DNA from: Larix sibirica | Lineage: Eukaryota; Streptophyta; Pinopsida; Pinales; Pinaceae | Length of the DNA: 29,704 bases | NCBI GenBank assembly: GCA_004151065.3 | Contig: NWUY0304905839.1 | Coordinates: 1 to 29,704, forward strand | Direction of reading: 5' to 3' | Part shown: positions 6,991-29,704 of the stretch, in pieces | Position numbering within the stretch: the first letter of the stretch is position 1 | How the letters are laid out: each line of letters starts with the position of its first letter | Translations under genes and position numbers: made by a program | The notes under the pieces: generated by a model | Told to the model about the DNA's origin: nothing | Databases searched by the model: none | What the model saw: only the letters and a program-made list of their open reading frames with translations

Positions 6991-9900
6991 GAATCGCATA
7001 TAATTTTCTGAAGTGTGAGGGGAAAAAGCTCACCTGACGGTAGGAGGGTGAGGTGCACTAAACACAAAACTGATCCATGGGAGAGGATAGGCTTGACCAA
7101 GAGATAAACTGGCTAGGTATACCCCGCATTACTTCCACCACGTCAACCTATTCCTAGCTAACCCCCGTATAAAGTCCACCCCGCTATTAGGCTTATCTGC
7201 CCAGCTCTCTAGACCGCACTATCCACTGCTATCTATGTATGTCCCGTATCACTGGCAGGTGAAAGTAAATCCTTTAATTAAATGCATTAGTGTGTAGGTT
7301 ATATATGTAAATATGTCATACCAAGTATATATAATTTACTGAGTATAGCTGGAATCAAGGGAAGTAGTCCTCAGCGATGCATGCCTCACCCCATTGAGTT
7401 AGGGCGTGGGCAACAAACAACCTCTCTGCCACACGAACTATAAGGGTCAGTGTAAAGAACAAGTGTCCTTAACAAGCCCATATTATATCTGAGATATCTA
7501 TTGATTACTATATATATACCTAGATGGCAGATGCATATATAGATATAGCTTACCACCATGCTTGATGAGACTAGCTTGGTTAGAACTACTTGCTTGGACA
7601 TATTATAACTAGACTATTAGGTTAGACAGCATGGTTCGGGTAGACGAGCTTCAGCTTCGCACAGGTTTGGTTCGGGTAGACCAGTTGGATTAAACATCCG
7701 AGGTACGGTTAAAAGATAAGAACAAGACTATTAGGTGGGACTGCTTAGATCTACTTATACTTTTACTTATTAGCTGAGAACAAGACTATAGGTTCAGTGA
7801 ACTACTAGGACAGATTGGCTTAAAACTATACTATTGTTTAATGGAACTACTTGGTCAGAGAAGAAGTATACTAATTGGTTGGACTAGAACTACTAGCTTG
7901 GCTCGTTTAGCAGCCCCAGTGAGTAGCGAGAGGGATAATAAGCCCAATAGAAGTAAGAGGTCTGGGGGTTATACGAGGTTTGGGGTCGGGGATTATAAGC
8001 CGAATATCAGTACGAGGTAGGGATGATTACCAGCCCGAAGCAGCTCGGGAGGGAGGAGTACCAGCCCGAAACAGTACGAGTCCCCGTAATAGTCTTTGTC
8101 TTCGGCTAACCCGGTTGATCCAGACTACTGAGTTTGTTTCAAGCCTGAGTTGATCCCGGCAACTGAGTCAAGCCATTAGCATAGGCAACAAAGACTGTAT
8201 GGCAGCTCAAGGAGTTTGGCTAACGCAGTTGATCCGGGCAACATTATATATGGAAGCATCAGGCCACTTTCCTTATATATATATTCCTTATCTATGCGAG
8301 CACGAGTTTAGTAGCCCCTAGGGGGTGCTCTTTATTCCCTTTCAGTCGAGTAACTTCAAGTTTATATTATACCTAAAAACCAAATATGTGCAAGGCTACC
8401 TTACTATCCATTTACTTACTTTGTTTACCACTAAAACCCTGAGTTACGCATTTTTTGTTCCAATGTGCCAAGCTAGCTACTGCAGTAATATTCTATTTTA
8501 TCATTGCATTATCTCAAGAGTGTATCCGATTTAAGATATAAATGAACTCTGCACACCACAATTTTGCATCCCTCTCCTTTCTCTTTATAGGGTTTCCCTA
8601 TTAGGTATAATCTTTAGGATTGTAACCAGGGACTTTTTTCATTATAACCTGACCTGCAGGCAGGACTTGGGACTTACCTTCAAGACTAGGGGTTTTACTT
8701 TTAGGATAAGGGATCTGGGTGGGAACGAGCTAAGAATGGAGGGTGATCCCAAAGAGCAGTCGATAAATCCTTACATTGTTAAAGAGGAGGACAGGCTAAT
8801 AATAAGGGTGTTTAGAGGGAAGGTAGAAGGGGCTTTATAAAGGCGTGCTGCTCCGGGCTTGAAGTGCATGGTGTTTTTTCTCCTTCACTTCAATATTCTT
8901 ATCTTTTTGAAGGAAGGACCTGCCGCGGTCAGTTTAGTAATTACAACCCTTTGCTAAATTGCATAGACTAAAATAGAGTTGTTGGAATCAGCCACGGATG
9001 CGCCAACTTAGAGAAAAAGTATAAGTAAGAAAGATGTATCAGAATGCAATAGAGTTATAAGTTTGTAGAGAGAAAAAGAGTAGGATTTTCATTATGGAGT
9101 TTTTCTTTACCAATGCTCATGCACTAATTGACATAATATAGTATTTGCACCTGTTGTGTAAACAGTTGTGGGTAAGGTTCCAATGGTCGAAGATAAAGCA
9201 ATAGATTGAGCAATTGCAAGCCTGATAAGAAAGGTTTATTATCAAGTTATTTATTCCGATTATACAGCAGTACGTGCAACTAATAGGACTTTTTGTATTG
9301 GCTTACTGAAGAGGCAGAGAGCAACAACTTTGATAGCAATTAGATTTCAAGACTACGTTGCTATGCTGCTTGCTGCTTAAAGTGAAGCCCATAATGTTAG
9401 AGCTAGCAGTGTATCTATATTGATTATTCAGCGTTAGTTGGCTTATACGAGCGAAATATGACAAATGATTATTTCCCCTATATAGAGTGGTTTAAAGGCA
9501 AGTCAGAAGGCGGGCGTGATTAGGCAGATTTCTTATTGATAGGTACTGCCATATATATAGATCTATACAAGGTTATACCTCCTTTCCTGGCCTTCCTTCC
9601 TTAAAGTGGTAAATTCAGTACTAAAAGGTGGCCTGGTAAAGACCTATCGGACCTTGGAACAGGATTAGTACGGGATAGTGGCTCTGAAACTTATAGAGAA
9701 CTAGTAAGATATTCAGTAGCAGGCGTAGCAGGATGTGAAAAAGAAGATGAAATCCCACCCCTAGCTAGGTACCCATGATGTTATATGTGTGGCCCAGCGG
9801 AGTGCTCTACCCCAAACGATCAGTAGCATGCACGCTCTACTGCTGGAATATATTTTGATAGCTGGCTATGCCATTGAAAGGCGAATCCTTACATTATCAC

Positions 9901-10142
9901 GCGCATCTAAGAGCTCTACTAATGCAATTGACTTCACCCAGTGTGAAATTGCTTGATCAAACTGGAGAAGGAGAAGGTAGAACAAGCGGATCTGGAGTAG
10001 AAGGCACTGGGATTCACCTAAAGCTCGCCTGCCTTAGGGTCGAGAGGAGGAACCGGAAACACTACCCCCTCTTGGGATAAAAAAATAGAGATTTTTGTTA
10101 CTCAACTATACACCCTTTCTAAGCTATACCCTTTAATGAGGT
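6991..10142. other. Long stretch without a recognised gene
   Basis: Nothing here supports a gene. Between 7600 and 8300 there are weak internal repeats: AGACTATTAGGTT-like elements near 7612 and 7727, with AGACTATAGGTT near 7784; GGTTCGGGTAGAC at about 7632 and 7669; and GTACGAGG or CAGCCCGAA-GCAG elements between about 7955 and 8085. The segments CAACGCAGTTGATCCGGGCAAC-like at about 8223 and GGTTGATCC near 8111 are also related to each other. The longest frames (7386-7601, 8325-8534, 9868-10080) show no domain. Confidence 0.5.
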
Positions 10143-10840
10143 TTATCTCTGAGTTCCAGTATTCATCCAGTAATGCGCAGTATTCCCCTCCTTCTGAACT
10201 AAATAGGAGCCTATGATTTGGGGTTGGACCCGGGCAACAAAGTGGAGTTGGAGATGATCCTCCCAAGAGGAGCTGAAAACCAGAATGTCATCTAAATAGA
10301 TAACCACAAACCTACCCAAATGTAGCCGCCTGAAGGTGTCGTTAATAAACCTCATGAAGGTGGACGGAGCATTGGTTAGCCCAAATGGCATGACGAGCCA
10401 CTTATACAACCCTAAATTTGTTTTTAATGTGGTCTTAATGTGTCTGCTACGTGCATCCTGACTTGGTGGTAGCCTGCTGTAAAGTCCATTTTAGTGAAAA
10501 AGCGAGCACCCCGCAAGTGGTCCAGTAGGTTGGCAATCCAAGGAAGGGGGTACCGGTTCTTAACAGTGGCCTTGTTTAGGGCATGATAGTCTGTAACCAT
10601 GCACCACTCATTGGAATCTTTATTTGGGATTATGATGGTTGGGAAGGTACAAGGAGAGGAGCTGGGTTGGATGTGGCTCAACTCAAGTAATTGGTTAATT
10701 TTATCTTCAATCTGCTCAGCTTCGTGAGGAGCCAAACAATATGAAGGAGTGTTGGGTAATGACGCCCCGGGGATAAGATCAATAGTATGCTCGATGGGCC
10801 AACAAGGTGGGAGGCCGGTGGGAGGGGGATTGGGACCCAT
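10143..10840 (-). pseudogene. Gypsy reverse transcriptase remnant, nearly complete
   Basis: On the minus strand from 10840, a frame carries the upstream RT motifs in order: GLPPCWPIEHTIDLIPGA, LLELSHIQPSSSPC, WCMVTDYHALNKATVKNRYP and FFTKMDFTAGYHQVRM, in which the first catalytic aspartate is present. A single-base break near 10430 moves to the second frame, which has KWLVMPFGLTNAPSTFMRF and VVIYLDDILVFSSSWEDHL, so the YLDD catalytic box is also intact. After SSWEDHLQ the usual thumb region is replaced by unrelated residues to the stop at 10143. Family style is plant Ty3/gypsy. Apart from the one frameshift this is the best preserved retroelement piece in the window. No RNase H or integrase follows on this strand. 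Confidence 0.85.
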
Positions 10841-10868
10841 TTATAAACCCATATGGTTTTTCGGGTTG

Positions 10869-11290
10869 AAGTACATCATTATTGCGATTTATTATCTTAC
10901 ATGGTGGACAGAAGATGCCCTAACCAGAGATTGCACCAAAGAAATACGTGCAAGGTTCATCTTTGAGCATATTGTAGTGAGGTTTGGTTGTTCACGAAGT
11001 ATCAATAGTAACCAAAGCAACTTTTTGTCAATGAGTATTTTACTTCGTCGATTAGGGAATTTATGATCCAACATCATAGGACAATGCCCTACCATCCATA
11101 GGTGAATGGTACTGTGGAAGCCTTCAACAAAATATTAGTGCGGTTTTACATTTACAATTAGTGGAGAAACAAAACAATATTTTCAAAGTTGCAGAGAGCA
11201 ATTCGTACCATATTGCTGCCTATGCTTCCAAAGGACCTTCGGCCCTCCTCTATTAGGAACATACTTATTTCTTTATTCCTCACGGGGCCC
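10869..11290 (+). pseudogene. Gypsy integrase core remnant, catalytically dead
   Basis: Plus-strand frames read as an integrase core: KYIIIAIYYLTWWTEDAL, then ARFIFEHIVVRFGCSRS and INSNQSNFL. A frame change follows, then REFMIQHHRTMPYHP and VNGTVEAFNKILVRF. Compared with the plant gypsy pattern (AIDYLT, TSDQG, NGTVEA) the first catalytic aspartate is tyrosine and the second is asparagine; the glutamate remains. Further stops follow. It abuts the minus-strand RT at 10840, back to back, so it comes from a different insertion or a rearrangement. Confidence 0.75.
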
Positions 11291-11659
11291 CTCAAATCGC
11301 TATGCTCAAGCTGAAAAGAAATCTAGTTCACTTTATGATAGTGAGTTATGAGCTATGCACCCATCAATCCATTGATCTATCCATCATAGCTCCCAATCCA
11401 TCTCATAGTGATAACCAACCCGATTTTTCTTTCCTTACCCGAACCCGAGACCCTAGTAGTTATGACCACCCCAATGGAGTTAAGTGAATGGCGTAAGCCC
11501 GCTAATTGTGTTAAGTGACCCCAAGTGTATGAACCAATTGAGTTAAAGCACGTTCATAAAGCACCTGAGCTATAGACCCAATGTTAGTTTATTTGACCCG
11601 ATCGTTACCGTACTTGTTATGACCCGTTTGTTACCGGCACGTTGTTTTTAATGCATCTG
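11291..11659. other. No gene recognised; short direct repeat
   Basis: No gene is supported. Two similar units lie near 11591-11640 (TTTGACCCGATCGTTACCG and TATGACCCGTTTGTTACCG). The 61-codon frame at 11302-11487 has no recognisable motif. Confidence 0.4.
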
Positions 11660-12140
11660 AGAGCCCCGTAGAGCCAGCCTTTCCTTTGAGTATTGAGATA
11701 TACTGTCTTGATGGGACTTTAAGAATTTGTATTGACTACATAGCTCTGAATAAGATCACCCTAAAGAATGAACACCCTCTTCCCAAGATCAATTAATTTT
11801 TTAGATTAGTTGCAACATACCAAGTACTTCACCAAGTGGGATATAAAATTGGGATACCACCAAGTATGAGTAATAGAAGAATACACTTGGAAAACCACCT
11901 TCAAGATGAGGCAAGGCTCATATCATGGTTTCCTTTGGTTTATGTAATACCAACTACATCTAGTGTTTAATTAATAATGTATTGCATCCCTTTATAGATT
12001 CATTTGTAATAGTGTACTTTAACGATATATTTATATTACTCTACCTAGGTAAATCATATATCACACCTCATGCAGGTGTTGGAGATCTTTAAAAAGCATA
12101 AACTGCCCCCGCATATTTCAAAAGCTTTTGCTTTTCACTA
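11660..12140 (+). pseudogene. Second gypsy reverse transcriptase remnant
   Basis: Several plus-strand frames, interrupted by stops and shifts, follow the RT order: [28 protein letters not shown], a GYHQV segment, then TTFKMRQGSYH, and VIVYFNDIFILL where the catalytic YLDD box has decayed to YFND. The thumb-like KHKLPP follows. The piece ends near 12140. It is more decayed than the RT at 10143-10840 and differs from it in sequence, so it is an independent insertion. Confidence 0.7.
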
Positions 12141-12635
12141 GATAAGTGAAACCTTCAGCAGCCGCAAGCCAAGCCCATCAGGCAAGCTACCTAGATAAGC
12201 AAGTTCCCACCCACTACGAAAGCTACCATGATAAGAAAGCTATTCACCAGCTATTAACCGCCAATCAAGCTATTAACCGCCAATCAAGCTAGCCCCCCTC
12301 TGTTTCATTATTTTCTTAATAATCTTATGTATTTATTATTAACTTCTTTATGCTTGGACTTGGTTTATTTTAATACATGGTTTATGAGTCAATAGTTAGG
12401 GTTTTATGTGAGTTCTTTCCCTTCATATATTATCTGTTGCTTAATTCACACAAAAATGAAGTAGTCTATTTTGGTACACCTTTGCACCGAAATACCCATA
12501 ACACAGACTAGTACTATGTCCATTAGGCAATGGAGTCAAAATGCCTGCCAACTTCGGACTTATTAAAAAAGCTCGACGGAGCTAAAAACTGGGAGAAATA
12601 ATAGAAAAGGGAAAAAACAAGAAAATACTTGGAAC
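12141..12635. other. No gene recognised; contains a 19-bp tandem
   Basis: The sequence between two retroelement remnants contains a perfect two-copy tandem of a 19-base unit (AGCTATTAACCGCCAATCA) at 12249-12286 and otherwise nothing I can assign. Confidence 0.5.
12249..12286 (+). repeat. 19-bp tandem duplication
   Basis: The unit AGCTATTAACCGCCAATCA occurs twice in succession, followed by AGCT. Perfect identity suggests recent slippage. Confidence 0.85.
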
Positions 12636-13890
12636 CTAATCTATTATAGTACAAGGTAGGTTTATTCTTTCAACATCTTCGTTCTTTCTTAAGCAATAAA
12701 GTGCTTTATATGCCTGCCATTGACAGGAAAATCCAGCAGCTCTCTCTCCATCCAGATTTTCCAAATGAAAATAATTAGGGTACTGTCCACAGACGGTGTC
12801 AATCACATAAGGCCCTAACCAGAGACTATAAAACATTCCATTTTTACCGGGGTCCTCATGCCTTTTGTCCCACAACAGAACCAGGTCTCCTACTTTCAAA
12901 TCCCTTGGCTTGGCTTTATTATCAAAGATCTTATTAATCCGATGGTGATACTCTTGAAACCTTTAATATAACTGATTACTCTATTCTTGTACCTCCACCA
13001 GCTGATTTCTCCTCCTCTTGATCATGTCTGGCTCTGAAACTATATCCTGCAATAATTTCATGACAGGTAGTTCCAGCTGGATAGGAAGCACTACCTCCAT
13101 GCCATAAACTAACTGGAAAGGTGCTTGTCTTTTGTCCCTCTTTATGCTGATCCTATCTCCCCATAGTGCATATCTGATATGATAATCCCATGTTTTTGGG
13201 TTATCTTCCAGTGTCTTCTTGAGGACCCTCATTATATTTTTGTTAGAAGACTGAGTGCAATCAAAGGCAAACTCCGTAATAAACCCTACAATGATGCTGT
13301 CCAACCAGAAATAAACTGCCCTCAATGAGTTGAAAGCCTTAGCATTATCCAGTCACAATCTTCTGCGGACAACTAAACCTAGATAGGGTGTTTTCTTAAA
13401 GGAATTTAATAACAACCTGATCGGTGGCTTGTTTAGTGGGGATGGCTTCTACCGATTTAGTAACGTAATCTATGGCTGTTAAGATCCATCTATGCTGGCC
13501 ACTAGAGGGTGGATGAATTTATCCTTTGAAATAAAGACCCCACTGCTGGAATGGTGCTTCTACTTGGACACACTTCAGAGGAAGGGTGGGGATTTTCTAT
13601 TTACCAGCAAATATTTGACACTCATGGCAAGCCCTAAAAAAAATATATAAATTGGAGTAGGTTCGGCCTATCCCCAACCTAAATATTTTTTTTTTAGCTA
13701 TTCCCCTAGTTGCATAATGTCCACCACAAATTCCTCGATGCATGTCCACTTCTTCTTCCAGCATCCACTTGAGTAGTAGGCCATCATGATCTTTCCAATG
13801 GAGGAATTCTGTCCTAACTACACAATACTTGACTGCCCTGAGCTTTAGTGACCTCCTTTTTTACTTCTCTATCCCTTCCTTGAGGTCATT
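12636..13890 (-). pseudogene. Gypsy integrase remnant, all three domains
   Basis: Minus strand, 13890 down to 12636, in integrase order. The zinc-binding part has HRGICGGHYATRG and later ACHECQIF, so the H, H, C, C ligands are visible. The core has PFQQWGLYF, SSGQHRWILTAIDYVTKS (first aspartate intact), VEAIPTKQATDQVVIKFL, and a one-base insertion near 13350-13365 just at the second aspartate. Next comes SSNKNIMRVLKKTLEDNPKT, where the expected catalytic E before SSN is Q, then PFQLVYGMEVVLPIQLELP and VMKLLQ. The C-terminal domain is MKVGDLVLLWDKRHEDPGK, WLGPYVIDTV and FHLENLDGE. Stops separate the blocks. Together with 13990-14322 it forms the longest single element in the window. Confidence 0.85.
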
Positions 13891-13989
13891 GGCCTGTGAT
13901 CAACAAGTGGGCCATATCACGGTACCAAGGGGATTAATGGTAGCAGGGCTTTATATTAGTATCCTCCTCATCCTCCTCTTGGGTAGTGC

Positions 13990-14322
13990 CTATCATGCAG
14001 CCTTCTACTCTGTTGATGCCCATTGCTTGCTAATTTTTCCATTAACTTCGCCAACCCTTGTCCGTTTCAAAACTTGGTGGGCTTTATAACCATATCATAT
14101 TATTTAATCATGGTTATCTATTTCCCTCTTTTGCCATCGGCATCTGGCTGGTAGAGCATATCCTTCACTGATATATGGGTCACATATGCAACTATCCAAG
14201 ATTGCAGTACGTATTCTATTAAGGATTTTGGAGCCTTGACCAAAGCATAGGCCCGCTTTTCCATGATATTCTACTTCAACTCTGAATCCCTGAGGGCCTT
14301 GCTTAAATAGGCAATGGGCCCA
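13990..14322 (-). pseudogene. Gypsy RNase H remnant, 3' part
   Basis: Upstream of the integrase on the same strand. The frame opens abruptly at 14322 with GPIAYLSKALRDSE, matching the GRPIAYFSKAL motif of gypsy RNase H, then EKRAYALVKAPKS, SVKDMLYQPDADGKRG and IKPTKF with NGQGLAKLM after stops. Order RNase H then integrase is normal for Ty3/gypsy, so this and 12636-13890 are one element. The abrupt start next to unrelated sequence marks an insertion or deletion junction. Confidence 0.75.
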
Positions 14323-15492
14323 CCTACGCGGATCCTGCCGGCAAGCGAGCTAGCCCGGCTAATCCCACCCAGCCAGCACCAGGATAAATAGAAAAATAGA
14401 TAGCGAAACTTAATTTCCTTTCGTTTCCTTTACTGCTCCCACCCAAGTAAGTGGTTGAGCAACTCCGTTCCCTTTACTTCGCCTAGGGCTAAATAAGAGA
14501 CTACGTTCCTATCCCGGAGTTCCCTTCTTTTCGGTAACTAGAGCCAGGGCCAGGGAAAAATAATAAGGATAAGGAAGGGTAAGTTCCAGACACAACTCTA
14601 TAACACTATCCCACTGCTATCATTTTAGCCCGCTACTTTAGACTCAGCTCATCAGCTGACGGGTTTATCCTTATAAGTTTGAAGGGGTCCGGATCCTAGT
14701 TTGGTCCTTAGCTAGCCTAGTATGGTCCTGAATTAGTAAGATTCTTATTTATTACGAAATTACATATAATTATATTGAAGGGTGGTGACTCAAGTTTTGT
14801 GCCCCTTATCAGTGAGGTTTGGAAATGCAACGTCTCAACATGTGCGGGCTAATCGGTATGCTCTCCACTGACTCACCTGCATGAAATAGCTGTCTCAACA
14901 TGGTATTGGCAATGAGGGTACACCACAAATTTTATTGACTGAACAATGAGCTGCGGAGCTACATTTGGCTTGGCACGGAATTTGCGCAATTTACTTATAT
15001 ATATATAATACAGTATACATAGCCGATTTAACGACATCTTCATGCAGGACTCAACTAAGCGAATTAAGGTCTTGGATCGAAGAAGATTTATCCTCCAATC
15101 ATACCTAAGAACGAGACTAGGCTCCATAGAATGGGGGCTAGGAACAAATGTTGGAAAAGCGGCAGCAATAGATTCGCGAGTACTTAGTTGTAGATATAAA
15201 TAATACAACAGTAAAGAAAGCCATAGGTATCTTTGATATTCCCCCTTATTTTTCTTTCTTCTTTGGAGTTATGGGATCTGGCCGTGGGGCGCCGGGAGAC
15301 CATAAACCTTTCAATTAGGGGACTGCTTTTGAGGCTTCGCTTTCTTCCATCCCATTCCTGCCTGATCGCCGTAGATAATGCCAAGTGAACATTTAGTTCG
15401 CTGTCGCTCACTGTATGCGGCGCTTTGTGCAGTAATAGCAAAAAAATAGCAGAAAGCAGCAGGCAGTAATATAGTGTGTAAATAGGGTGGGT
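14323..15492. other. No gene recognised
   Basis: Two minus-strand frames overlap here: 14873-15208 (111 codons) and 15184-15543 (119 codons, with one hydrophobic segment, YCLLLSAIFLLLLHK). Neither shows a domain I know, and neither has a recognisable neighbour. CT-rich text around 14410-14540 resembles ordinary plant mitochondrial spacer. A short TA run lies at about 14996-15008. Confidence 0.4.
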
Positions 15493-15552
15493 AAAGATAT
15501 TAGTTGAGTGGCCGGTAGTCCGTAAAGAGTGGTTCGATTCCACTATATACTA
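15493..15552 (+). pseudogene. Possible truncated tRNA
   Basis: A T-arm is clear: stem AGTGG, loop TTCGATT, stem CCACT (15528-15544), followed by ATATACT. About 50 bases upstream AAGATATTAGTTGAGTGG resembles an acceptor 5' strand, D-stem and D-loop start; five of seven acceptor pairs form. Only about 15 bases lie between the two parts, too few for an anticodon arm, so no identity can be given. It sits just upstream of the cox2 pseudogene, which makes a fungal mitochondrial tRNA scrap plausible, but chance similarity is possible. Confidence 0.25.
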
Positions 15553-16040
15553 TTAAGAGCGCTCCTCGGCGGCACAGGTAAGTCCAAGGGTCTAAACCGA
15601 ATCATCTAAGTGTGGTCTTATCAATAAAGTGTGTGGAAAGAGAGCGGCAATCAGCCCTTTAGGGCGGGGCCGACCCAGACTATAAATTATCTAAAGCTAG
15701 AAGGCTTAGTAAATGGGCGCAGGAGCCGCGATAAGGCAGCAAAAAAGAGAGCAGTCATTCATAAGCTATATCAGCAGCCCCAATTAAAAATGATACTCCA
15801 CAAGCTTGGTTGGCAATTTGGGTAGACGGTGCAACCCCAACACAAGAAGGACTAACTGAGCTACACAATTCACTCTTATTCTATCTATACGTAATCGCTT
15901 TCGGTGTACTTTGGGTTATAACTTCTGCTGTTATTTTCAACTTAGCCATAAATAAAGAAATAATAGTAGAGCCCTAATCAAACTAAGTTGGACTATAATG
16001 TATTGCTTTCCCGAGTTTGAAACTACTTTACCTTATGGAT

Positions 16041-16398
16041 TGGCAGGATCCCGCTAGGGCTCGCCGCCCCGCTTCGCGCAGGACCAGGGGGACGTGGTAA
16101 GTTAAACGGGGTATAATATAACCCGAAAAGCCTTTTCAATATTGTGCTATAAAACCTCGGGCTAGGCGAAAAAACCTAAGATATGCTAGCGGAAAGCGGA
16201 GCTATATTACTTTTTCCATAATACTGCCATCACTAAAGGCAATCAAATAACTATTAAGTGCTACCTACTTAAATTAGCCGCCTCCAGCCAGCCGGGACAA
16301 TTATTAGAGTAATTATAACTTGCAGTGGATAGTGACATCCTAAAAGACTATACTATGATACGGTATATGACTGAGTCTCCTTTCATGAGAGCGCAGCG
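16041..16398 (+). other. Intron-like interruption in the cox2 pseudogene
   Basis: This 358-base insert lies between the cox2 codons for LLYLMD and EVIYPSM, which are contiguous in normal cox2. The exon before it ends in T and the insert ends in G, as group I introns do, and fungal cox2 genes do carry introns. A run CTAAAAGACTATACTATGAT near 16338 is faintly like group I core sequence, but I could not pair a full P3-P7 core and no homing endonuclease is visible. A GC-rich insertion is the alternative. Part of the segment (16041-16085) is a GC cluster. Confidence 0.4.
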
Positions 16399-16499
16399 GA
16401 AGTAATATATCCATCAATGACACGGCGGCAGCAGCTGGACATCAGTGGTATTGGTCTCGGAATTGATTTAGCGCTACAAGGAAGGGGTAATAAGCCCTA

Positions 16500-16560
16500 G
16501 CCCCACTAGCGGGCGCAAAGCGCGGTAGCGCAACCCGCCCTCTAAGCGTCCCGAAACGCG
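16500..16560. repeat. GC-rich multi-hairpin element
   Basis: GCGGG (16509-16513) pairs with CCCGC (16534-16538); inside it CGC-AAA-GCG and CGC-GGTA-GCG can each form a small stem, and GCGTCCCGAAACGC follows. Such GC clusters with nested hairpins are common in fungal mitochondrial spacers. Other GC clusters in this block are at 16041-16085 and 18028-18065. Confidence 0.5.
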
Positions 16561-16733
16561 CGAAGCAAGCCTCTAGCTAACCCCCGGAGAGTGGGAAACA
16601 AGGATACTGAAGCGAACCGAGCAAGTTATAGACCTAAAGCCCTTGCCATAATAAGAAATCAAGATGGCTATAGAGTGGAATGCAGTATCAGCACCAGGAC
16701 TAAAACTATACTGTATACCAGGACGGCCTATAA

Positions 16734-16937
16734 ACTGTCATTTATGCAAAAACACCCAGCCCGCCTTTACTTAATATAACTGCTTCCCCGGCTAAGAGTA
16801 ATAATTTCATAGATTGGTTTGCTGACGGCGGGCGCTCTCACCGCAATTACGTGAAAAAAGGGGCACAAACCACACCAGAAACAGTCCAAAGCTTAATAAT
16901 ATGATTCGCCCCGACCCTGGGCAGGATGCTAAGATAA
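16734..16937 (+). other. 67-codon frame open only if TGA is Trp
   Basis: Between stops at 16731 and 16935 one frame runs with a single TGA at 16902. Fungal mitochondria read TGA as tryptophan; plants do not. The translation includes NNFIDWFADGG, HRNYVKKGAQTTPETVQSL and, after the TGA, FAPTLGRMLR. I do not recognise it and it does not match the missing cox2 segment. It may be part of an intron-encoded protein or chance. The plus-strand frame at 16591-16779 is in another frame and has no support. Confidence 0.25.
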
Positions 16938-17121
16938 AGTAAACAGGCAAAGCTAGAAATTGTAGAGTAGCAATCAAAGCAATAATAACCGGCCGGGAGT
17001 AGCAAGATGATCATAGGTGTGAAAGCATCCTAAGCGGCCCAGAAGGACCGAACCCGCGATAGAATCCTCTCTACTAATTGAGCGTGAAGGTGTCTTCTAT
17101 GGGCAATGTTCAGAACTATGA

Positions 17122-17689
17122 ACCAATTAATCGGTCGGGCCCGCGCTTGGTTGGTATTTTAGAAACTGGGTTGCCTAGAGTAATCTTAGACGCTGCCTAC
17201 CTACCTATATATAAGTAACATCAGCTAAAATTACTCTAGGTTATACGGGGTAAACCTAATAGCGCGGGCTAGAGACAGCCGGGCCGGTTCAACAACTAAT
17301 AGTTTATAAATAAGAATCCTAACACGAATGCCCAGCAACTAAAACGATTTTATATTTTGTTTTATAGTGGTGTGTCTAATCAAAAGTGTAAACTAGTGGA
17401 AAAAACGTTGTTAAAAAAAAAATAGTTCGACGCATGTCTATTCAAATATAAGCTCTTTATCCATTCATCAGGCCTCGCTTTGATTGATAGCCTCTCAATG
17501 ACCGAACCCCCCCCCTTCCCCTAAAGTGCGCGGAAGCAAAGTAAGCCATAAAAAACCCCTTGTAGAGAACGCGTTATATATAAAGAAATCTATAGTCCAC
17601 TGCAAGGCTGTTATTCTACTTGGTGGTATGGTACAATTACTTAAAGGAGGTACCTAATCTTACTAACATAATTTGGTAACAACAAAGTG
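17122..17689. other. Spacer without a recognised gene
   Basis: No gene is assigned. An imperfect inverted repeat is visible: TTGCCTAGAGTAATCTTAG (about 17171) against CTAAAATTACTCTAGG (about 17225), able to form a stem of about 15 bases. A run of nine C residues occurs near 17508 and one of ten A near 17413. Confidence 0.4.
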
Positions 17690-17870
17690 TATGGTCTCTC
17701 CTACCCCTACTACCTCCTTCCTATCTTTAGAATTCTTTTTTCTTTCTGCTCTAGCCGAGAAAAATCGTACACCAACCTACCAGAGGCGTAACTCTAGACT
17801 TGGCCTTCAAATACTACAAAATTCCGACCAAAAAGGACCGTCCCCACTTGGGGGAGCGCACCCTAAGTAA
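17690..17870 (+). pseudogene. nad1-like remnant (N-terminal part)
   Basis: NADH dehydrogenase subunit 1 is a membrane subunit of complex I. The plus-strand frame has a hydrophobic start (SFLSLEFFFLSALAE) and then AEKNRTPTYQRR. The spacing from AE to QRR is the same as in the conserved nad1 motif AERKVMxxxQRR. It continues RLGLQILQNSDQKG, comparable to the nad1 segment GxxGLLQPFAD after loss of about three residues. The frame ends in a stop at 17868. Similarity is short and relies on motif spacing, so the assignment is tentative; the position in the same block as the fungal cox2 remnant supports it. Confidence 0.4.
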
Positions 17871-20100
17871 CAGACTGCTATAGCCTAATCAGCAGCTAAC
17901 TAGTAAGCCCACTTTTGGTAAGGGAGACTAAGCAAGGTAATGAGCATTAAGGAAAATAAAGTAAGTTACTATGAACTTGAGTGGGAAGGGCAAAGGGTTA
18001 TTGCTGCCTACTAAGCTATAATACCGAGGCCCGGCACCGCTAACGGGACGCACGCTGCGCGAACTTATACCCCTGAATGCTTCCCGGTACCCAACGGGAG
18101 GGAGGAACATCCGAACCCATTGCCAGACCCAAATACCCTGCCTGGATCTAGGCTTTGAACAAACTATGGAGAACCCACGCACCCAACCAACCACACACCC
18201 AACCAAACATAGATAACTTGAGACCCACCGCCTTCTTACCTATGCGTTACCCACCTACCCTACCTATCCTATGCGTGAAAAAAGAGCCGGCAAGACACAA
18301 GAGACTGAGCGCCACTAGCCGCCCATACCCGGCACCCCTGATATCCCATTTACCTTCGATCTGGTATCCCTAGTTCCGCCTACCTTGACTTCTTACCTGC
18401 CGCTGGCTTAATTACCCTTTTGCAACTAGTCTCCCTTCCTTCTTACCCGGGTTATTTATTTCTGGACTTCCGACCTGGTACGAGTTACTTAGCTGCGTTT
18501 ATTTCCTTCCGACTTGGTTGGCACTTTTATTACTTTCCTTCCTTACGTTTATTATTTTTATTTACTTGCTGCGAGGTGGGCTGGCATTGTTTACTTTAAG
18601 TTTGAGCTACCGCTTGAATTAACATGAAGACTTAGCCAATATGCGTTGGACAGCGGACGGGGCAACCAACGAACTGTTAAAGATATGCTTTTGCTATTTA
18701 TTGATTTCAAGCCAACATATTGCGTGGAGATCTTGTCCGGCGGACGGGGCTACGACCTACCTGTGCCAGATATCATTTACGATTTATACCACACTTATAG
18801 CTTCTATTTCCGGCTCCCTTTCGGGGACAGGTGCGCTACTGCTACACCAGACCATTGCTTTATTAGATGTTATTACTAAAAACACTAGATTACAGGCGCG
18901 CTACGCGTTTTTCAAATCCTTCTCCTTCGGGAAAGCTCGTTCCTATCTCGTTGGTCGAGTCACTTAACGTACCTCGCTCTCCTACCTCGGGCGAGAACTT
19001 AACGTTCCTGCTAACCTTCTTTATCGCCTTAGCGGAGAGGCACAGCCGGAAGATGGCATAACCAGCTTAAAAATCCTTACCTTCCGTATAAAAGAAAGGC
19101 GGAGCGAGCCTGTGTGGGTGGGGCGCCGCAAGGGAAGGTGAGAGAGATTTAAGCCAGCCAAGAAAAGAAAGATAGCAGGCTTAACATTGAGGGCACCTGA
19201 AATAGGATGAAAGTAGGCATGGCAAAGTATCTGGTTATACCAGAGTTTCTATTTTGTACTACAGTCTCGGAGTAATAAGCGGTTTTGAGGCGCTTTTGCT
19301 AGCGGATGCCAACGACGTGTACAATAATAACTAGTTTAATTAATGGACTACTGTCCACAAAGCCCACTTGGATGAAGGGCATCGCACCGAGCCGAGGTAG
19401 TCCCTGGTTGTTTCTTTTGAGCCCGGAACCGAACATATAGCTTACCTGTGTCCTTTGAGTGAGCCTGGAACCTAATGTTGAAATGGGTATGAAGACGTCC
19501 AATTGCGTCATGAGAAGCGCTTGCATAATTAAGTCTAATATGCGATAAGCCCAATCATTTCAGAAAATGAACACCATCAATTTTTACCATTATTTATACA
19601 TTCACCCCAAAATAGCCCATTTTGTCGTGCAATATTCAAGTAGAATAGCACTTTGCCGCCATTTTCCTATATAAAAATAACTTGCCTTTTTTTAATCTAG
19701 TTGAGCAAAAAAAAAAAAATATTTTTTACCTAACCTAACAGAGAATCTATTTTTGGTAGCCATAATTACGTATATTAGCATTTTGCCTTTTTCTATCTAA
19801 ACATCACTTGCTTTTTCAGTCTTTTTGTTAAAGAAAGCGGAAAAGATCGTACTTGATTAATTAATTGAAGCGGCGAGACCGCCCACACCTGTTTGAGTTA
19901 CGCGTTAAAACCACCCTCCATTTACCCCGTAAGGAATAAAAGAAGTTGCCCCAAAAATAGACCGGTACTCACCGAATAAGTCACTTAGCCTTTTCACCCT
20001 CAAGAATGAAATGACTGCTGGTCATTCATTAATCTAAGTCATTACGCCAACTCACACTTACTGCTTTATAAGGGCTTACTGTAGCTGCGGCTTACCTTAC
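17871..20100. other. Stretch with GC clusters, no gene assigned
   Basis: No gene is supported. GC-rich clusters at 18028-18065 (CCCGGCACCGCTAACGGG and onward) and 18083-18100 resemble fungal mitochondrial spacer elements, as does CGGCTCCCTTTCGGGGACAG near 18811. A pyrimidine-rich stretch covers about 18210-18560. The segment GCGGACGGGGC occurs twice, near 18652 and 18739. Frames at 18641-18967 (108 codons), 18646-18879 and 18867-19061 overlap one another without known motifs. A poly-A run lies near 19707. Confidence 0.45.
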
Positions 20101-21019
20101 TCAAATGGACGTTGGATTTACTGGTATTGGGAGAATTGGTGGGGGGAGCACAGCACAAACAAGCTGGTTGTAGGTTTGGGCAATGGGGCTATAGGTGGTC
20201 AAGCCAGCAGTGGCGCGGTCAGTACGGATGAGGTTGAGGCACTCAAATTGTCGTTGATGGAAGAGAGGGCATTAATGTGTAGTGCCCAAGCTCGAGGCAC
20301 AAGGTGCATGAAATGGTATTATTTTTATAAGCCGGTGGGGGATGGCTAACATGATCTGGGTGGTAAGGGATTAAATCCACGGTTAGGCGCAAGGTCAGCG
20401 GTAGGTGACGTGGGGGGCACCGCCGGAAAAGGTATACAGAAATATCCCGACGATGTCAACTGTTTTGGTGGTGCAGGTTGTGTTTCATGTTGTGCAACAA
20501 AAAAATTGCGCTAGTTAGCTGTCATGGGCACCACAAGATCACTCAGGTGGGGATTCTAGTCCATATGTTGGTGCAATAGATCATGGTATCTAATGCACTG
20601 ACGCGGGTATAATGGCAAACATATGGGCATAAATAACAAGTTATTTTATGAGGATCTTGGGTAGGCTACACTGTTCATGGTGCTGGGGTGATCTGAATAA
20701 TGTGTAGAGGGGGCCTCCTACTTCATGGCCAGGTGGTAGTGGAAGTAGGGTTAGAGGAGGTGCCGACGGGGTTACTGCTCACCAAGTTTGGGTATTGTGT
20801 TGTCTAGACTGTAGTGATGGGCCAGACCAATGAGACGAGCTTGAGGATTCTGCATGGTGAGTGGTGACAATGTGAAAATGCGGAGATGGTCCATCCAAAT
20901 TGGTATCTGACATGGCAGGCAATCTATTTTTGGGGTGTGTAGAGGATGAACACGGTTCATCGACAGGTTGTTAGCCTGATGCGGAATGTCTCAAAAATAT
21001 ATAGATGTATGATGAAGGG
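20101..21019. other. Probable decayed retroelement flank, G-rich on plus strand
   Basis: This G/T-rich plus strand lies downstream (minus direction) of the zinc-knuckle frame at 21020-21301 and has similar composition, so it may be the continuation of the same element. The 62-codon minus frame at 20772-20960 shows no motif. Nothing else is supported. Confidence 0.35.
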
Positions 21020-21301
21020 TCATTCTAAGGTAATGGTGATTGGATACAGCAGTGAGAGGATAGAATCCCGATACCAAGGAAGCTCAATACAATCATGGGT
21101 ATAATGGCCATAGGTGTCGCAAATTGCACAGGGGTGTGAGGTGCGAAGGCCAGTCGGGCATGTCTTGTCTTTGATGCCCCCAGCTGATGGGGTGGGAACA
21201 AGAGGTGGTGCACAAAGAAGATGACACAATTCAGGGAGAGTGGAACACTTATGGGTTGAGTGGCCGAGGGTGTCACACAGGGCGCACGGGGAATAGTGCA
21301 C
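21020..21301 (-). pseudogene. Gag-like double zinc knuckle remnant
   Basis: The minus frame carries two perfect CCHC knuckles: CALCDTLGHSTHKC near its start and CAICDTYGHYTHDC about 35 residues later, each C-x2-C-x4-H-x4-C. Both are followed by a short L/P-rich tail (STLPEL and IELPWY). This pattern, PCAICDxxGHxTHxC, is typical of nucleocapsid regions of plant Ty3/gypsy gag proteins, which bind element RNA. The rest of gag is not evident on either side and no LTR is seen. Overlapping frames at 21025-21276 (minus) and 21303-21620 (plus) are shadows. Confidence 0.6.
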
Positions 21302-22502
21302 GGTGGCTTGGGTGGTCCGGCACTTACCTTTCTACCATGGAGGGTTACGAATGCAGGTCCTAGAAATTGGGGCTATGGCTGGAGGGGTTACATCTTTGTC
21401 AGGACGGGGTAGAATGCCCTCAGTGGGTGGTGTGGGGGAAATAACATGGGCAGATCCATCAGGCAGGATGAACAGGGATCATGTGAAAATGAACGGGAGG
21501 GACTCTGGCAGTATTGGAGTGTGGGGGATAAGGATGGTGGATATAGACAGAGAAAAGGATGCGTTATTGGGAACAGAGCTAAGGAAAAAGGATATTCTTT
21601 GTTATACCGTAGTGACCTGAATGCCTTAATTCCTTCATTCCGTGGAGTGTTTATAATTTCTTTATTTCCACAAAATCTCTATATATATATGTAATTACGC
21701 TTTATAATCTGTATCCCTAGCGGTGATAACCCGATAAAATAGGGGGAAATACCGGAAATCTATTTCGGCATAACATTGCCTCACCAACCAACCAGATCCC
21801 TAGCCTGCCTCACTCTAATATCCCTAATTATTTATAATATACCCATTATAATATACCTAACTATAGTTGTCGGGAAATTAGTGGCCTGCCTTCCTGTATG
21901 GAACAAATACCAATCCGATAGGGATTTATTGCTCGTCCTTCCTAGTACGAGGACGCATTCGCACTCTCTATCATCTTGACACGGCACCTTTGCTTCCTTA
22001 ATTTCCCAGCTTCCTGGAAGTAAGGCCAGGGTCATTAAATCTACATTACTGGCTACTCTACTCTCCATGAACTGAGCATAGGCCACGCTCGCATTCTCTC
22101 TTTTTCTCATCCGGAAAAGTTATCCCTTATTTCTTTCTTCCTGTCCTTCCTTTAACTAGTGGGTGCGGAAGCACGCTCGACAAAAGTGGTGGAGGGGGTG
22201 AGGGTCTTTAGACTTCGATCGGACGCTAGGAGATCGAGAGACGAACCCGATCGACAAAATGGTGGAGGTACGAGAGCCGCCATCGAATTTGACTAATCAA
22301 ACAGGGCGTATCCATTAGATATAAAGGTTTGAGCTGGCCTATTGGAAGGTGGGAATTTGACTTTAGTGGGCGTCTCCAGACAATAGAAAAGCTTACGGGG
22401 TGTTACCGTGATAAAAATATTGAATAGGAAAGTGGGCGTCAAGTAAGGGAAGTTGCTTGCCTTCCCTGAACTGAAGTGAGTGGGAAATTGACTAACAAAT
22501 CT
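21302..22502. other. No gene recognised
   Basis: Frames at 21303-21620, 21446-21694, 21776-21979, 21832-22110 and 22293-22553 show no domains. A repeated element TCGACAAAA-GTGGTGGAGG occurs near 22177 and again as TCGACAAAATGGTGGAGG near 22250. Confidence 0.45.
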
Positions 22503-22566
22503 GGAAAAGCTTGCTTGACCAAAGGGAGGGCAAGGAAAAGCTTGCTTGACCAAAGGGAGGGCAAGG
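22503..22566 (+). repeat. 31-bp tandem duplication, also dispersed
   Basis: A 31-base unit starting GGAAAAGCTTGCTTGACC occurs twice head to tail (22503-22533, 22534-22564) without mismatch. A one-mismatch copy is at 5388-5420 and a degenerate inverted copy at about 27930-27962. Confidence 0.9.
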
Positions 22567-22589
22567 GCGCATCACAGTATCATTATAAG

Positions 22590-23045
22590 TTTATAGCATC
22601 CTTTTTCAATGTGGTTGTACCACTCAATTTTAGAACATAAAGCAGCAATAGTTTACAGTGGGGAAACTATTAACAGAAGGATTTTGTAGAGAGAAAATGA
22701 AAAATTAATAAAGCACTAGTTCTTGCATTGCCCAATTTGCATAAGCCTTTTGAAGTGGAGACAGATGCAATAAGATATGCTATGGAATGTATTGATGTAG
22801 GGAGTTAAGACAGCATGCTATAATTATTAAATGTTTCATGGCTCAGTCCTGAACTACCCCGGAAGATAAGGAACTTTATGCTCTAGTGCAAGTTGTTAAG
22901 ATATGGAAATACTTTTTATAGGTAAGGAAACCATCGTCCACACTGAGAAACAACAGTTTCATCTTTTCATCAAGTATCAAAAAGGTGGTACTAATAAGTT
23001 GGCAGACATGCTTTCAAGGCCACCCACACCCAAGATCACAGCTTT
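22590..23045 (+). pseudogene. Gypsy RT-RNase H junction remnant
   Basis: Plus-strand frames give KALVLALPNLHKPFEVETDA, the classic start of gypsy RNase H with its first aspartate (ETDA), then YAMECIDVG, a PEDKELYALVQVVKIW block in a shifted frame, and KYQKGGTNKLADMLSRPP-like residues in yet another frame. Several stops and shifts separate them. The 100 bases before KALVL fit the connecting region between RT and RNase H but are poorly preserved. The piece ends near the RPP motif; no integrase follows recognisably. Confidence 0.7.
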
Positions 23046-24659
23046 TGGTACAATTTAGGGCCCATTTGCATTAGGTGACTATGTATCACATAAATTTCCC
23101 TATGACAGGAGCAAAGTGCTTTAAAATAATGGCACGCTGGCACTTTTGGTATTTACGAGATTTGGAGACGGAGATTCAAAAGCTACACAAAATTTGGGCT
23201 ACAAAACCACAAAGATAGCTTATAGACTTGCTTGTATAGAAGAACCACCAAATCCCTATAATAGTTTGAAGAGTAGCGCTATGAATTAGAAACTGTAAAC
23301 CCATAGGCCTAACTAGTGTTATTAAGGAAAACCTGGCGTTCATTAAAGGTATCACTTCGCTATCGAGAGCTATTACTACACTCTGCTCAAACCTATGCTA
23401 ACAAGACTGAACTACAACAGCCTATTATCTAAGGAGCTCATTCAGACCTAAGGAGTGAATGAAGGATCAACCATTCTTCTTCCTTGCCCCCCCCAACCTT
23501 ATGACTTTTTATTGTCCCTTGCTCAGCAGTATGATTTGAGTAAATGCCCAGCCTTATTTTCCTTCATGAATTCAAATTCCTAAGAGGGGGAATCAATCCC
23601 ACCAAATTAGCATGCAGGTTTCTAGGAAAACTGGGGGACAACTTCCACCAATTAAAGAGCTAATTTAAGGGGGCAGTTTGGAGTCTATTCAAGCATAAAT
23701 AATAGCAGGATTGATAGCATATGTTGGACACTCTCTTTTACCATTTCCATTATTATTTTTCTCTAGCAATTGAATTCAGCCCTTGCTAGTCGAGGTGCAT
23801 GATACATTCCAACATGTAATCTCTGCTTTTATAATAAGAAGAAGTTGCCTTTCTTTTGAGCATCTAAGGTTTTAGTAGTTCTTGTGGTAACCTTGGTAGC
23901 CCCCTTCAAGGCACTACAAGAACCTTGTTAGTATATATTGTTTGACTTTATTTTAATAGTTAGTTCAATTATTTTATAGTGCTTATATGCTTTTTACTCA
24001 TTTCCTGTAGATTCATGTACAGCTCACATAGTGTAGTTATAATTTCTATAGTTTAATGTTAATTTCTATGGTTATGCCCAGAATTGTATTATTTCCTTTC
24101 AAGCACTTTTCTCTTTATGTAGTGATCAACACTTTGACTCATACTCAATGTCTTGGACCATATTCCATCATAAAGTAGTCTAGTAGCCTTATTGACTTAA
24201 TTCTGTCATACAGCATGAATATGCTTGCCTTCATTGTGTGACAGCTTGAACATAGCAGTTAATATGCTAGCCTGTGGAAGTGAATGAATCAGGTACTAAG
24301 GATTAAAGATCATCTTGTTAGTTGATGTTTCCCGTAGACTAAGAATGCATCTATAGCTACATCTATTGTGCTCAGCACCTCTAAGTTTGTACGAACCTCA
24401 GGTTTACAAATTAAAGTAAGGCCGGCTAAATGCAACAATCTTGTTGTAATCTTAAAGCCCACCAAGGCCCCAGCCCTCAAGGCATAAATAGATAAGCTTT
24501 GTAAAGTATGATTCATATATCCCATTGCATACACTTCTTGGGTGTCCAACCCAGTTTCTATTAATAATAAACAAGCTACTATACGTGTTCATTTTTCATT
24601 TCATTATATAAATTGGGCTTGTCCCAAAGAGAACTCCTAACACCCTTCATTTCTCAAAT
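23046..24659. other. Decayed sequence, no gene assigned
   Basis: The stretch following the RNase H remnant may include more of the same element, since frames such as EFKFLRGGIN (about 23570) look coding-like, but nothing can be named. A minus frame at 24310-24549 (79 codons) contains MDTQEVYAMG, loosely like EIEQEMYTMG in the minus-strand remnant near 29400, so the two could derive from related nuclear sequences. The run CCCCCCCC near 23488 is the only low-complexity feature. Confidence 0.4.
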
Positions 24660-24689: not shown

Positions 24690-24990
24690 TCCTTTATGGA
24701 TGGTTTCTTAGGATACAATCAGATCTAGATTATCCCTGAGAACCAATATAGGACTGCTTTCACCACCCCTTAGGCAACATTCACCTATAATGTCATGCCA
24801 TTTAGTTTCAAGAATGATGGAGCCACATTTCAGCGGGCCATATAATACGTGTTCCATTACTTGGTTTTTATTATTATTATTTTATCTAACCTTTATGATA
24901 TCACTGCCAAGTAAAGAAATGATCACAACACCACAAGGATCTTTGTATCATTTTCCTTCAGTGTTTAAAGTACAATATCCTCTAAAATCC
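24690..24990 (+). pseudogene. Third gypsy reverse transcriptase remnant
   Basis: The plus strand carries the RT middle region with two or more stops: DGFLGYNQI, IIPENQYRTAFTTP, YNVMPFSFKNDGATFQRAI. These equal the SGYNQI, EDxxKTAFxTPxG and VMPFGLKNAGATYQRAM motifs. The aspartate box that should follow (YVDD) is replaced by a T-rich stretch, although LYDITAK appears where the DDxxAKS motif belongs. A frame at 24790-24996 covers only part. This RT type (GATFQRA) differs from the two RT remnants near 10-12 kb (NAPSTFM). Confidence 0.7.
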
Positions 24991-25299
24991 TATTAAGTGC
25001 CTTTAAAATGTGCTTACTGGTCGACTATAGTCAGGGATCATCATTGATTCATTCAAAGTATGGGCCATCTCCAAGCTCCCTCCACCCAAAACTCTATGGT
25101 AGCTTATTATGATACTACATCTCATGGGTTCTTGTGTATATTGCATTCCACATAGCTTTCGTATGGGACAACCAAGCCTAGCAATCATTCGACACATTAA
25201 AGTGGGATCTTAGTTATGCACCTCTCATCATCCCTATTTACATTAATAAGGATTTTTACCTTTATGTTTTAGCTAATACTTTCGCAATCACTAGAGTTT

Positions 25300-25715
25300 T
25301 GGCTCAATAGGAAAAAATGGCTCTGAGCATGTCATCTACTACATGAGTAATAATATATTACCTCCCTATCCTACAACCACAACGAGAAGTTAGGCTTCAT
25401 GGTTGTCTTCATTGTCCAGAAGTTGCACCATTACATTCTAACATGTAAAACCAAATTTTTTGTGAATTTGAACCCCATGCCATACATCCTACATTGGTGA
25501 GTCATCAATGGAAAGCTTGCCCGATGGATAGTGATCCTATAGGAGTGAAACCTTTAATTTGTTACTCCTAAGAGTAAAAAAGCCTTAGACCTAGATGAAT
25601 TCATATAAAATATCCCCACTAGTGCATCTGATCCCCCCATTAACAATGATCTTCTTGATGAACATATGTTTTCCATCTCTTTGGAAGATCCTTGGTATGG
25701 TGACATTCTGGTCTT
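25300..25715 (+). pseudogene. Gypsy RNase H and tether remnant
   Basis: Continuing from the RT at 24690 on the same strand: HVIYYMSNN (the AIYYLSR motif), VQKLHHYILTCKTKF, LNPMPYILHW and NGKLARWIVIL in RNase H order. The tether follows: PKSKKALDLDEF, then PTSASDPPINNDLLDEHM and SLEDPWYGDIL, the WYGDI motif that precedes integrase in many plant gypsy elements. The similarity stops abruptly near 25715 where GGCTGG repeats begin, marking a junction. Stops after LDLDEFI and elsewhere show it is dead. Confidence 0.75.
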
Positions 25716-27595: not shown

Positions 27596-27814
27596 TTAAT
27601 TAAATGACTCATTGATGTCTGAGGTTAGTCTTATAATGACTCCTGGATTTATTAGGTTAATGGATAACGCCTCCTTGGCTAACGACCCAAATATAAGTAT
27701 GAAAGTAGATACGCCGGCCGGTAGAGTAGCAAGTATAAAGCCAGCGGAAGAGCAAGTAGCTAGGGAATTGAAAGGCATAATAACGTATAATAATAAATGT
27801 CCTCCTTGACCCAC
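27596..27814 (-). pseudogene. atp6-like C-terminal remnant
   Basis: Subunit a of ATP synthase forms the proton half-channels with the c-ring. The minus frame (GTG at 27814, open further upstream, TAA at 27596) is hydrophobic and without stops. It reads GGHLLLYVI, FILATLPAGVSTFILIFGSL, then LSINLINPGVIIRLTSDI and ends ESFN. Fungal subunit a ends AGHLLLHII, then FFILGLIPLAFII, FIQAQV, VVLTSSYI and a stop a few residues later; the length from GH to the stop is 68 codons here against about 66. The order and spacing agree, but identity is low and the channel arginine lies upstream of the preserved part. A chance hydrophobic frame is the alternative. The plus frame at 27612-27809 is its shadow. Confidence 0.35.
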
Positions 27815-27929
27815 GAGGGAGTAGTTTAAGATCTCGGAGTAGCTACTATAGATGGTTTTGGTCCAATAACTAACTAACTAACCTCTGGACTGGGCATGCC
27901 TCAGATTTGTGACTTATCTCCAAATATAG

Positions 27930-27962
27930 AATTTCCTTGCCCTCCTTTTGGTTGAGCAAGTG
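27930..27962 (-). repeat. Degenerate inverted copy of the 31-bp repeat
   Basis: Reverse complement begins CCACTTGCTCAACCAAAAGG and continues AGGGCAAGGAA, a few mismatches from the unit at 22503-22564. Confidence 0.6.
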
Positions 27963-28772
27963 GGTCCTTGGGTTTGTAAAAAGAATATGTTGGGAACATG
28001 CTTCTGGATATGCCTTTGGACTCATCTAGTTGGAAGAACTTGGAATAGCTGTTGGCTGAATCCTTTGGAACTAGGTAAGGCGTCTTACTGGCACTATCCT
28101 TCCACCTAAAGTCGGACTCCGGTGAATGTGCTAGATCAGGCTAACCGGACTTCTCCGAATGAGCTTAACCCGGTGGACTATGGTCTTCGCATACCATTAA
28201 TTATGAAAGCACCGATGGCAATAAGCACTAAATATAAAATTACCGCGAAGCATTAGTAGACTCAAATGCAAAGTAAGCGGTATGCAATTAAAATGCAAAT
28301 CAAACAAATTGGGAGCCCACTAGTAAATTGGGTATAAAATAGATGGGAGAGAAGCATGTGTCTCTTTGCTCAAAGTCATGGCGGGACTAATGGGGCTCCC
28401 GTGCCTCTAAAAAAAAACTCATCATGGGCACCAGATAGATGGCAATCAAGGTGCTAACTAGGGCAGCCCATGATAGGTAGGCACTACCACACAAGTTACG
28501 ACAAACAACTAAAAGAGAGCGGTTTAAATGTCGCAACCTGGTGGGATTGATCTTAATAAAATGAAAGACTTAATAAGGCAAGAATGCAAATGTGCAAAGC
28601 ATAAGACCTAGCCCTATATGCTAGTCAATCAATTTTTTACCTCAGAAATTCGATGCATGTCGCAAGTGAAAAACTCCTACGAATGGTACAACATGCAAAA
28701 ACAAAAGGATAACCCTATATAGAACATATACAAGGAATTCATGAGACATTTCTGCCTATGGATAATACTTCT
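27963..28772. other. No gene recognised
   Basis: No reading frame or RNA gene is supported. GCTAACCGG and GCTTAACCCGG elements near 28140-28172 are weak repeats. Confidence 0.4.
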
Positions 28773-29557: not shown

Positions 29558-29704
29558 CTCACAGGTACAAGGCCACATAATTTTCCATGGTAAGGCAAAG
29601 TTCGCCAAAACACTAGGAACATATGAGTGGATTTACTAGTTTTAAGTCATAAAAGATCGATATTATCACCTGCAAGCTGATCAATAGTGACAATGCTTTC
29701 GTTG

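Follow-up and report, generated by a model that had tools for sequence, protein, structure and literature searches.

A decayed fungal-type cox2, most similar to that of the smut lineage, in what is most likely mitochondrial DNA of a Pinaceae conifer

Introduction

To our knowledge, orchids are the only plants known to have received mitochondrial DNA from fungi, and in them this is linked to their dependence on these partners. The usual model of entry combines contact between the fungus and the plant with the uptake of foreign DNA by the plant's mitochondria, driven by repair. For orchid mitogenomes such fungal DNA was reportedly described by Sinn and Barrett in 2020 and by Valencia-D et al. 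in 2023. According to the accessible part of Warren et al. 2025 (PMC11827590), the fungal DNA in orchid mitogenomes is mitochondrial DNA of Ustilaginomycetes, epidendroids carry a fungal block of ~8 kb with up to eight tRNA genes, and Corallorhiza possesses pseudogenes of atp6, atp8, cox1, cox2, nad1 and nad4. Whole or partial mitogenomes of plants, mosses and algae have also moved into plant mitochondria, Amborella being the example in the accessible part of PMC9174605.

The locus described here lies in a window of 29,704 nucleotides, by which we mean the whole stretch of DNA analysed. As in the orchid case, in so far as the accessible part of PMC11827590 presents it, fungal mitochondrial DNA would be contained in plant mitochondrial DNA with decayed genes, cox2 among them, and the Ustilaginomycetes donor reported there is also the lineage that fits best here. 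Unlike the orchid case, the host is a Pinaceae conifer; in place of the ~8 kb block with several genes and tRNAs only cox2 was found, with perhaps one tRNA arm; and there is a nuclear-looking second copy, whereas none is described in the same part of that report. We consider the locus to be of the orchid kind, but, with another host and with cox2 as the only gene found, not the orchid event. With the Amborella-type transfers it has in common that foreign mitochondrial DNA is joined into that of a plant and left there as a pseudogene, and it differs from them in its donor, which would be a fungus.

Results

A fungal-type cox2 is present as seven blocks at 15783-17118, all on the plus strand and in the order of the gene, with frames running 3, 2, 3, 1, 3, 2, 1 (Table 1). 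In tblastn searches with 120 homologues as queries, the stretch of blocks 1 to 3 (15774-16040) gave 87.0 bits and E 3e-23 with P0001, the top row of our protein matches, in an alignment that passes through stops and two deletions; block 7 was found at E 6e-7, the row of block 5 (16407-16457) at E 2e-4, and block 6, which is the weakest block standing alone, at E 0.007. When P0241 served as the query, the real sequence of 14500-19600 produced matches of 85.1, 37.4, 28.9 and 20.0 bits; in the control with the same query, 135 of 200 dinucleotide shuffles of 14300-19700 produced any match, the best of them reaching 23.5 bits. Three blocks are above chance individually, and the 20.0-bit block, LSWTI and EVIYPSMT were accepted only because of their order and place. 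Among the Pfam profiles, COX2_TM covers block 1 with 26.4 bits, passing its cut-off of 22.8, and PF00116 covers block 7 with 15.4 bits, under its cut-off of 22. The ordered blocks on one strand and in shifting frames, of which the first-pass annotation of this DNA had read at least seven from the sequence, are confirmed. The extent that it had given needs correction: the homology to a second copy begins further upstream, at 15540, and no cox2 blocks were found 3' of 17118.

Table 1. Parts of the cox2 relic and the neighbouring T-arm (positions in the window; C10932 is the contig with the second copy)
Feature	Position	Strand	Frame	Content
T-arm	15528..15544	+		perfect tRNA-type, AGTGGTTCGATTCCACT; partial cmscan match, 13.1 bits, E 0.17, under the gathering score
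Block 1	15783..15968	+	3	IKNDTPQAW...NKEIIV; N-terminal part and first transmembrane helix
Deletion scar 1	15969..15982	+		14 nt in the window and in C10932, 33 nt in the fungal gene
Block 2	15983..15997	+	2	LSWTI; LIWT in the C10932 copy
Deletion scar 2	15995..16001	+		7 nt in the window, 8 nt in C10932, 27 nt in the fungal gene; overlaps the end of block 2
Block 3	16002..16040	+	3	IAFPSLKLLYLMD
Insert 1	16041..16398	+		358 nt between adjacent fungal codons; without counterpart in the coding sequence
Block 4	16399..16422	+	1	EVIYPSMT
Block 5	16422..16457	+	3	TAAAAGHQWYWS
Block 6	16682..16726	+	2	AVSAPGLKLYCIPGR
Insert 2	16727..17061	+		335 nt; the fungal gene has a few codons there
Block 7	17062..17118	+	1	ESSLLIEREGVFYGQCSEL; copper-site loop

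With its changes of frame between blocks, two deletions and two inserts, the relic is without an open reading frame. The 224 nt that separate block 5 from block 6, where P0241 has 61 codons, contain no recognisable residues. A decayed intron is one possibility for insert 1. Its end contains AAGACTATA, which resembles a core motif of group I introns and which we do not count as evidence. Up to E 1, models of group I and group II introns matched nowhere in the window, and as a source of both inserts such introns were set aside after a search of 16030-17130 at E up to 10, which returned only 4 chance-like matches. The T-arm upstream of the relic may be all that is left of a tRNA gene, perhaps a fungal one. 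ARAGORN found no tRNA genes in the window, Rfam had no matches there at E up to 1, and Pfam showed no other mitochondrial families in 14300-19290, 9340-14330, 19290-24280 and 24700-29690; by these three approaches (with Pfam over 9340-24280 and 24700-29690) no fungal mitochondrial gene or tRNA besides cox2 was found in the window.

A composite of the blocks, taken as a query, matched 723 proteins at E up to 0.001. Among the best 120 of these 723, a minority of which are named, the named eukaryotes are all fungi, and one row has the label of a bacterial MAG. Rhizoctonia, Ophiostoma, 'Ustil...', Jaminaea and Cryptococcus are the fungi named across the two match listings, that of the block composite and that of P0001, along with a few rows labelled as bacterial or bacterial MAG. 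P0001 itself is 93% identical to an 'Ustil...' mitochondrial protein, 85% to that of Jaminaea angkorensis, 81-84% to those of Rhizoctonia and 74% to that of Cryptococcus, and two named rows suggest that its group is Ustilaginomycotina. Over 130 hand-aligned residues the relic agrees with P0001 at 93, with P0241 (its organism name likewise truncated to 'Ustil...') at 90, with Jaminaea at 88, with Cryptococcus at 78, with Rhizoctonia at 77 and with Ophiostoma at 75, while outside these the counts are 68/128 for yeast, 56/130 for Arabidopsis and 51/120 for human, all of them from an alignment that was threaded on P0241 and may slightly favour its kin.

The window groups with P0001, on a long branch, both in a tree of 124 rows (support 87/74) and in one of 42 rows (88/49). 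In the 42-row tree this branch has a length of 1.23, and the Ustilaginales-like group has support of 85/90; the fungal-type part consists of 39 rows, a minority of them with an organism name, and the non-fungal groups are Arabidopsis and human. AU tests, for which some groups were defined after the tree had been seen, rejected the placement of the window outside the 39 fungal-type rows (p 0.00292); they did not reject its placement in a set regarded as ascomycetes, made up of yeast, Ophiostoma and three unnamed rows (p 0.19), nor an Ustilaginales-like clade without the window (p 0.301) or an Ustilaginomycotina-like one without it (p 0.0965). Judged by its residues and its position in the trees, the relic is a fungal-type cox2 and not a plant cox2. 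The same distinction had been drawn in the first-pass annotation, which named a grouping with plant cox2 as the contrary outcome; this grouping was looked at by uniting the window with Arabidopsis, and it is rejected (p 0.00722). As to the donor, identity and tree position favour the smut lineage.

The assembly searched comprises 618,328,334 bases in 19,862 contigs. An atp4 frame on contig C17742, which has repeats in common with the window, is 96% identical to that of Larix sibirica and 94% to that of Abies; lower values were obtained for Podocarpus (84%), Zamia (82%), Sciadopitys (80%), Dendrobium (67%) and Apostasia (67%). The two Pinaceae values lead us to consider the host as a Pinaceae conifer; an orchid host, suggested earlier from the sequence alone, does not agree with the two orchid values of 67%. 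The host has its own cox1, intact on C19808, and a plant-type cox2, with exon 1 on C19326 (L020) and exon 2 on C18752 (L001). The two exons thus lie on separate contigs, and many of their codons are of a type that RNA editing corrects; it is possible that the intron between them is long or trans-spliced. Plant-type codons of this kind were also noticed by eye in a cox1 fragment, L017 (C13998:29189-29359, E 1.8e-4). On contig C35 there are two matches to cox2 exon 2 (L023 and L024, at 38479-38667 and 33543-33731, G+C 0.363), and the one of them that was read proved to be a relic of plant type, which apparently derives from the host cox2 by copying to the nucleus.

A search of the whole assembly with P0001 gave 7 matches, namely the 2 host cox2 exons, 2 in the window, 1 on C10932 and the 2 plant-type relics of C35 (one read), with no intact fungal cox2 among them. 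Likewise, inspection of the 3 COX1 family matches (the host cox1, the C13998 fragment and C5803) found no fungal cox1; the match on C5803, at E 0.124, was taken as noise. An exact 22-base string of the conserved segment occurs 0 times in genome_contigs and 0 times in viral_contigs. The COX2 family search of the assembly returned host exon 2 only and missed both the window and exon 1; searches of this type do not recognise genes in such a state of decay, and are therefore weak evidence for the absence of other fungal genes. Conifer genomes are far larger than this assembly, which may be partial, so the absence of fungal genes is not complete.

A DNA search of the assembly with 14300-19700 gave 15 matches including the window itself. 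The strongest of the others is C10932:15996-16489, on the minus strand, 494 bp long and 81% identical to 15540-16030. The edges of this similarity are sharp and lie within A+T-rich DNA, and a nearby frame has a weak match to an aspartyl protease of retroelement type (E 0.018, under the cut-off). In these features, and in being short, the copy is like the NUMTs, and we infer that it is one, a mitochondrial-type sequence in nuclear-looking flanks on a contig that would be nuclear; it would be unlike other NUMTs in that its mitochondrial source was itself foreign, that is, fungal. The two frame-breaking deletions are common to both copies, and the gene was therefore already dead, with its decay begun, when the copy was made. 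Given the stops and frame breaks, neither copy would have any function left.

Among 488 aligned positions 93 differ. Counted from the window to C10932, 41 of the changes are G>A or C>T and 16 are A>G or T>C. This excess of changes from G:C to A:T points to the direction of copying, towards C10932, and would be expected if C10932 decays in the nucleus. In block 1, 14 of 45 residues are not the same in the two copies; the fungal residue is kept by the window at 8 of these, by C10932 at 4 and by neither at 2, so that the window copy has changed too, which suggests more change than would be expected from the very slow mitochondrial rate alone. The Jukes-Cantor (JC) distance between the copies is 0.22.

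The window has G+C of 0.418, the four contigs with host mitochondrial genes have 0.403-0.441, and C10932 has 0.319 over 14,206 bases. Against 177,843 bases of the four host-gene contigs the window gave 31 blastn matches; the contig of atp4 accounts for 19 of them, that of cox1 for 7, that of cox2 exon 2 for 3 and that of cox2 exon 1 for 2. The matches include a dispersed repeat found in the window at 5387-5421, 22502-22535, 22533-22566 and 27932-27960 (tandem at 22.5 kb, inverted at the last position), which recurs over 27-35 bp at 94-100% identity on the contigs of atp4, cox1 and cox2 exon 2, and on the atp4 contig also as a 64-base pair of copies. The contig of cox2 exon 1, C19326, of which 50 kb of 70.9 kb were read, is without this repeat and its 2 matches are weak. 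In the comparison set of C10932, C35, C13998 and C5803 (25,494 bases), whose non-mitochondrial part is small, with 14,206 bases from C10932 and 4,883 from C35, the cox2 copy was the one blastn match to the window. No host mitochondrial genes were found on the window's contig in the parts scanned. Considering the shared dispersed repeats together with the matching G+C, the window is most likely located in the host mitochondrial genome.

Fragments of gypsy type lie on both sides of the relic, and we take them to be plant elements. On the 5' side, on the minus strand, Pfam finds RVT_1 (around 10245-10630) and RT_RNaseH (around 14130-14318), and on the 3' side there are weak RNaseH matches near 22.66, 25.16 and 25.37 kb (22659-22784 and 25164-25545). 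The first-pass annotation is right in that the relic is decayed and lies inside a plant-derived contig. The nuclear setting that it implied by pointing to the neighbouring retroelements is not supported, in view of the repeats common to the window and the host contigs of atp4, cox1 and cox2 exon 2; these repeats make it most likely that the retroelement debris, too, is in mitochondrial DNA. Given a mitochondrial window, the gypsy-type fragments would be nuclear debris of the sort reported for large plant mitogenomes.

Discussion

We propose, with a probability of about 0.78, that the window is part of the mitogenome of a Pinaceae conifer and holds a decayed fungal cox2, most like that of Ustilaginomycotina (the smut lineage). 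Fungal mitochondrial DNA with cox2 would have entered a conifer cell and been joined into the conifer mitochondrial DNA. It would have been functionless there, and the two frame-breaking deletions, which both copies show, arose. A piece of at least 494 bp would then have been copied to the nucleus as a NUMT, as suggested by the nuclear-looking flanks of the copy, in a direction that we infer. Before or after this step the mitochondrial copy would have been broken further, by the inserts of about 0.35 kb and by the loss of its 3' end, to the anatomy observed today.

A rather improbable alternative is that the window is nuclear. Both copies would then have been inserted into the nuclear genome, as conifer mitochondrial DNA that bore the fungal gene or as fungal mitochondrial DNA directly. 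The gypsy pol fragments, decayed and lying on both sides, would suit such a location, as would the contig's being without a host mitochondrial gene in the parts scanned; against it stand the dispersed repeats shared at 94-100% with the contigs of atp4, cox1 and cox2 exon 2 and a G+C like theirs rather than like that of C10932, and the G:C to A:T excess in C10932 fits one nuclear and one non-nuclear copy. Contamination or a chimeric assembly, in which DNA of a tree-dwelling fungus was joined to conifer sequence, had been named in the first-pass annotation as the other outcome contrary to its reading, and conifer samples do often carry fungi. We regard it as very improbable: a fungal contaminant would have a working cox2, whereas the relic is broken, and the second decayed copy, with the same two deletions on another contig, answers the question indirectly. 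These shared deletions, and the 7 cox2 and 3 cox1 matches without an intact fungal gene, make a fungal contaminant an unlikely source.

Little credit can be given, too, to a donor outside the fungi, namely some eukaryote that is not sampled and whose cox2 is similar. Room for it is left by the listing, which is the best 120 of 723 matches with a minority named, and by a tree whose non-fungal groups are Arabidopsis and human; but all named eukaryotes among the listed matches are fungi, and the position outside the 39 fungal-type rows was rejected. A derivation of the blocks from the plant cox2 of the host itself, by divergence, has a negligible probability. Cox2 is conserved, its short blocks resemble all cox2, and the Arabidopsis protein does match the region (E 4e-5), but of 130 residues it shares 56 with the relic, where P0001 shares 93, the grouping with it was rejected, and the host-type relics on C35 are recognisably plant.

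If the relic is indeed a fungal cox2 in conifer mitochondrial DNA, this case suggests that the transfer of mitochondrial DNA from fungi to plants is not confined to orchids and that its route is wider. In the literature searched, mostly without subscription papers, we found no fungal transfer into conifer mitochondrial DNA, and one may still be in print; the gymnosperm mitogenome papers PMC12222119, PMC7517811, PMC9703787 and PMC9174605, in their accessible parts, make no mention of fungal DNA in plant mitochondrial DNA. The likely same donor lineage in both hosts would pose a testable question, namely why it is mitochondrial DNA of the smut lineage. One may speculate, and we do so tentatively, holding it on the whole as unlikely, that such DNA entered the mitochondria of seed plants repeatedly and independently, in orchids once or more and in the ancestry of Pinaceae much earlier. 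On this reading the conifer copy would be ancient: conifer rates are slow, and if the nuclear copy changes at no more than about 1e-9 per site per year, the JC distance of 0.22 would place its copying to the nucleus, and hence the fungal transfer before it, some 100 million years back or earlier, as a very rough figure. The nuclear-looking second copy offers a way to date the transfer and a guard against contamination.

Two families of repeats can be mentioned in addition. The dispersed repeat, of 30-35 bases, has the appearance of a short interspersed family in the mitochondrial DNA of this conifer. The 13 remaining matches of the DNA search of the assembly are short and lie at 18.1-19.3 kb of the window, where repeats at 18565-18834 and 18935-18995 match, at 74-97% identity, short segments of a dozen other contigs with numbers from C17569 to C19844; parts of the repeat at 18.57-18.83 kb recur on five of the contigs examined.
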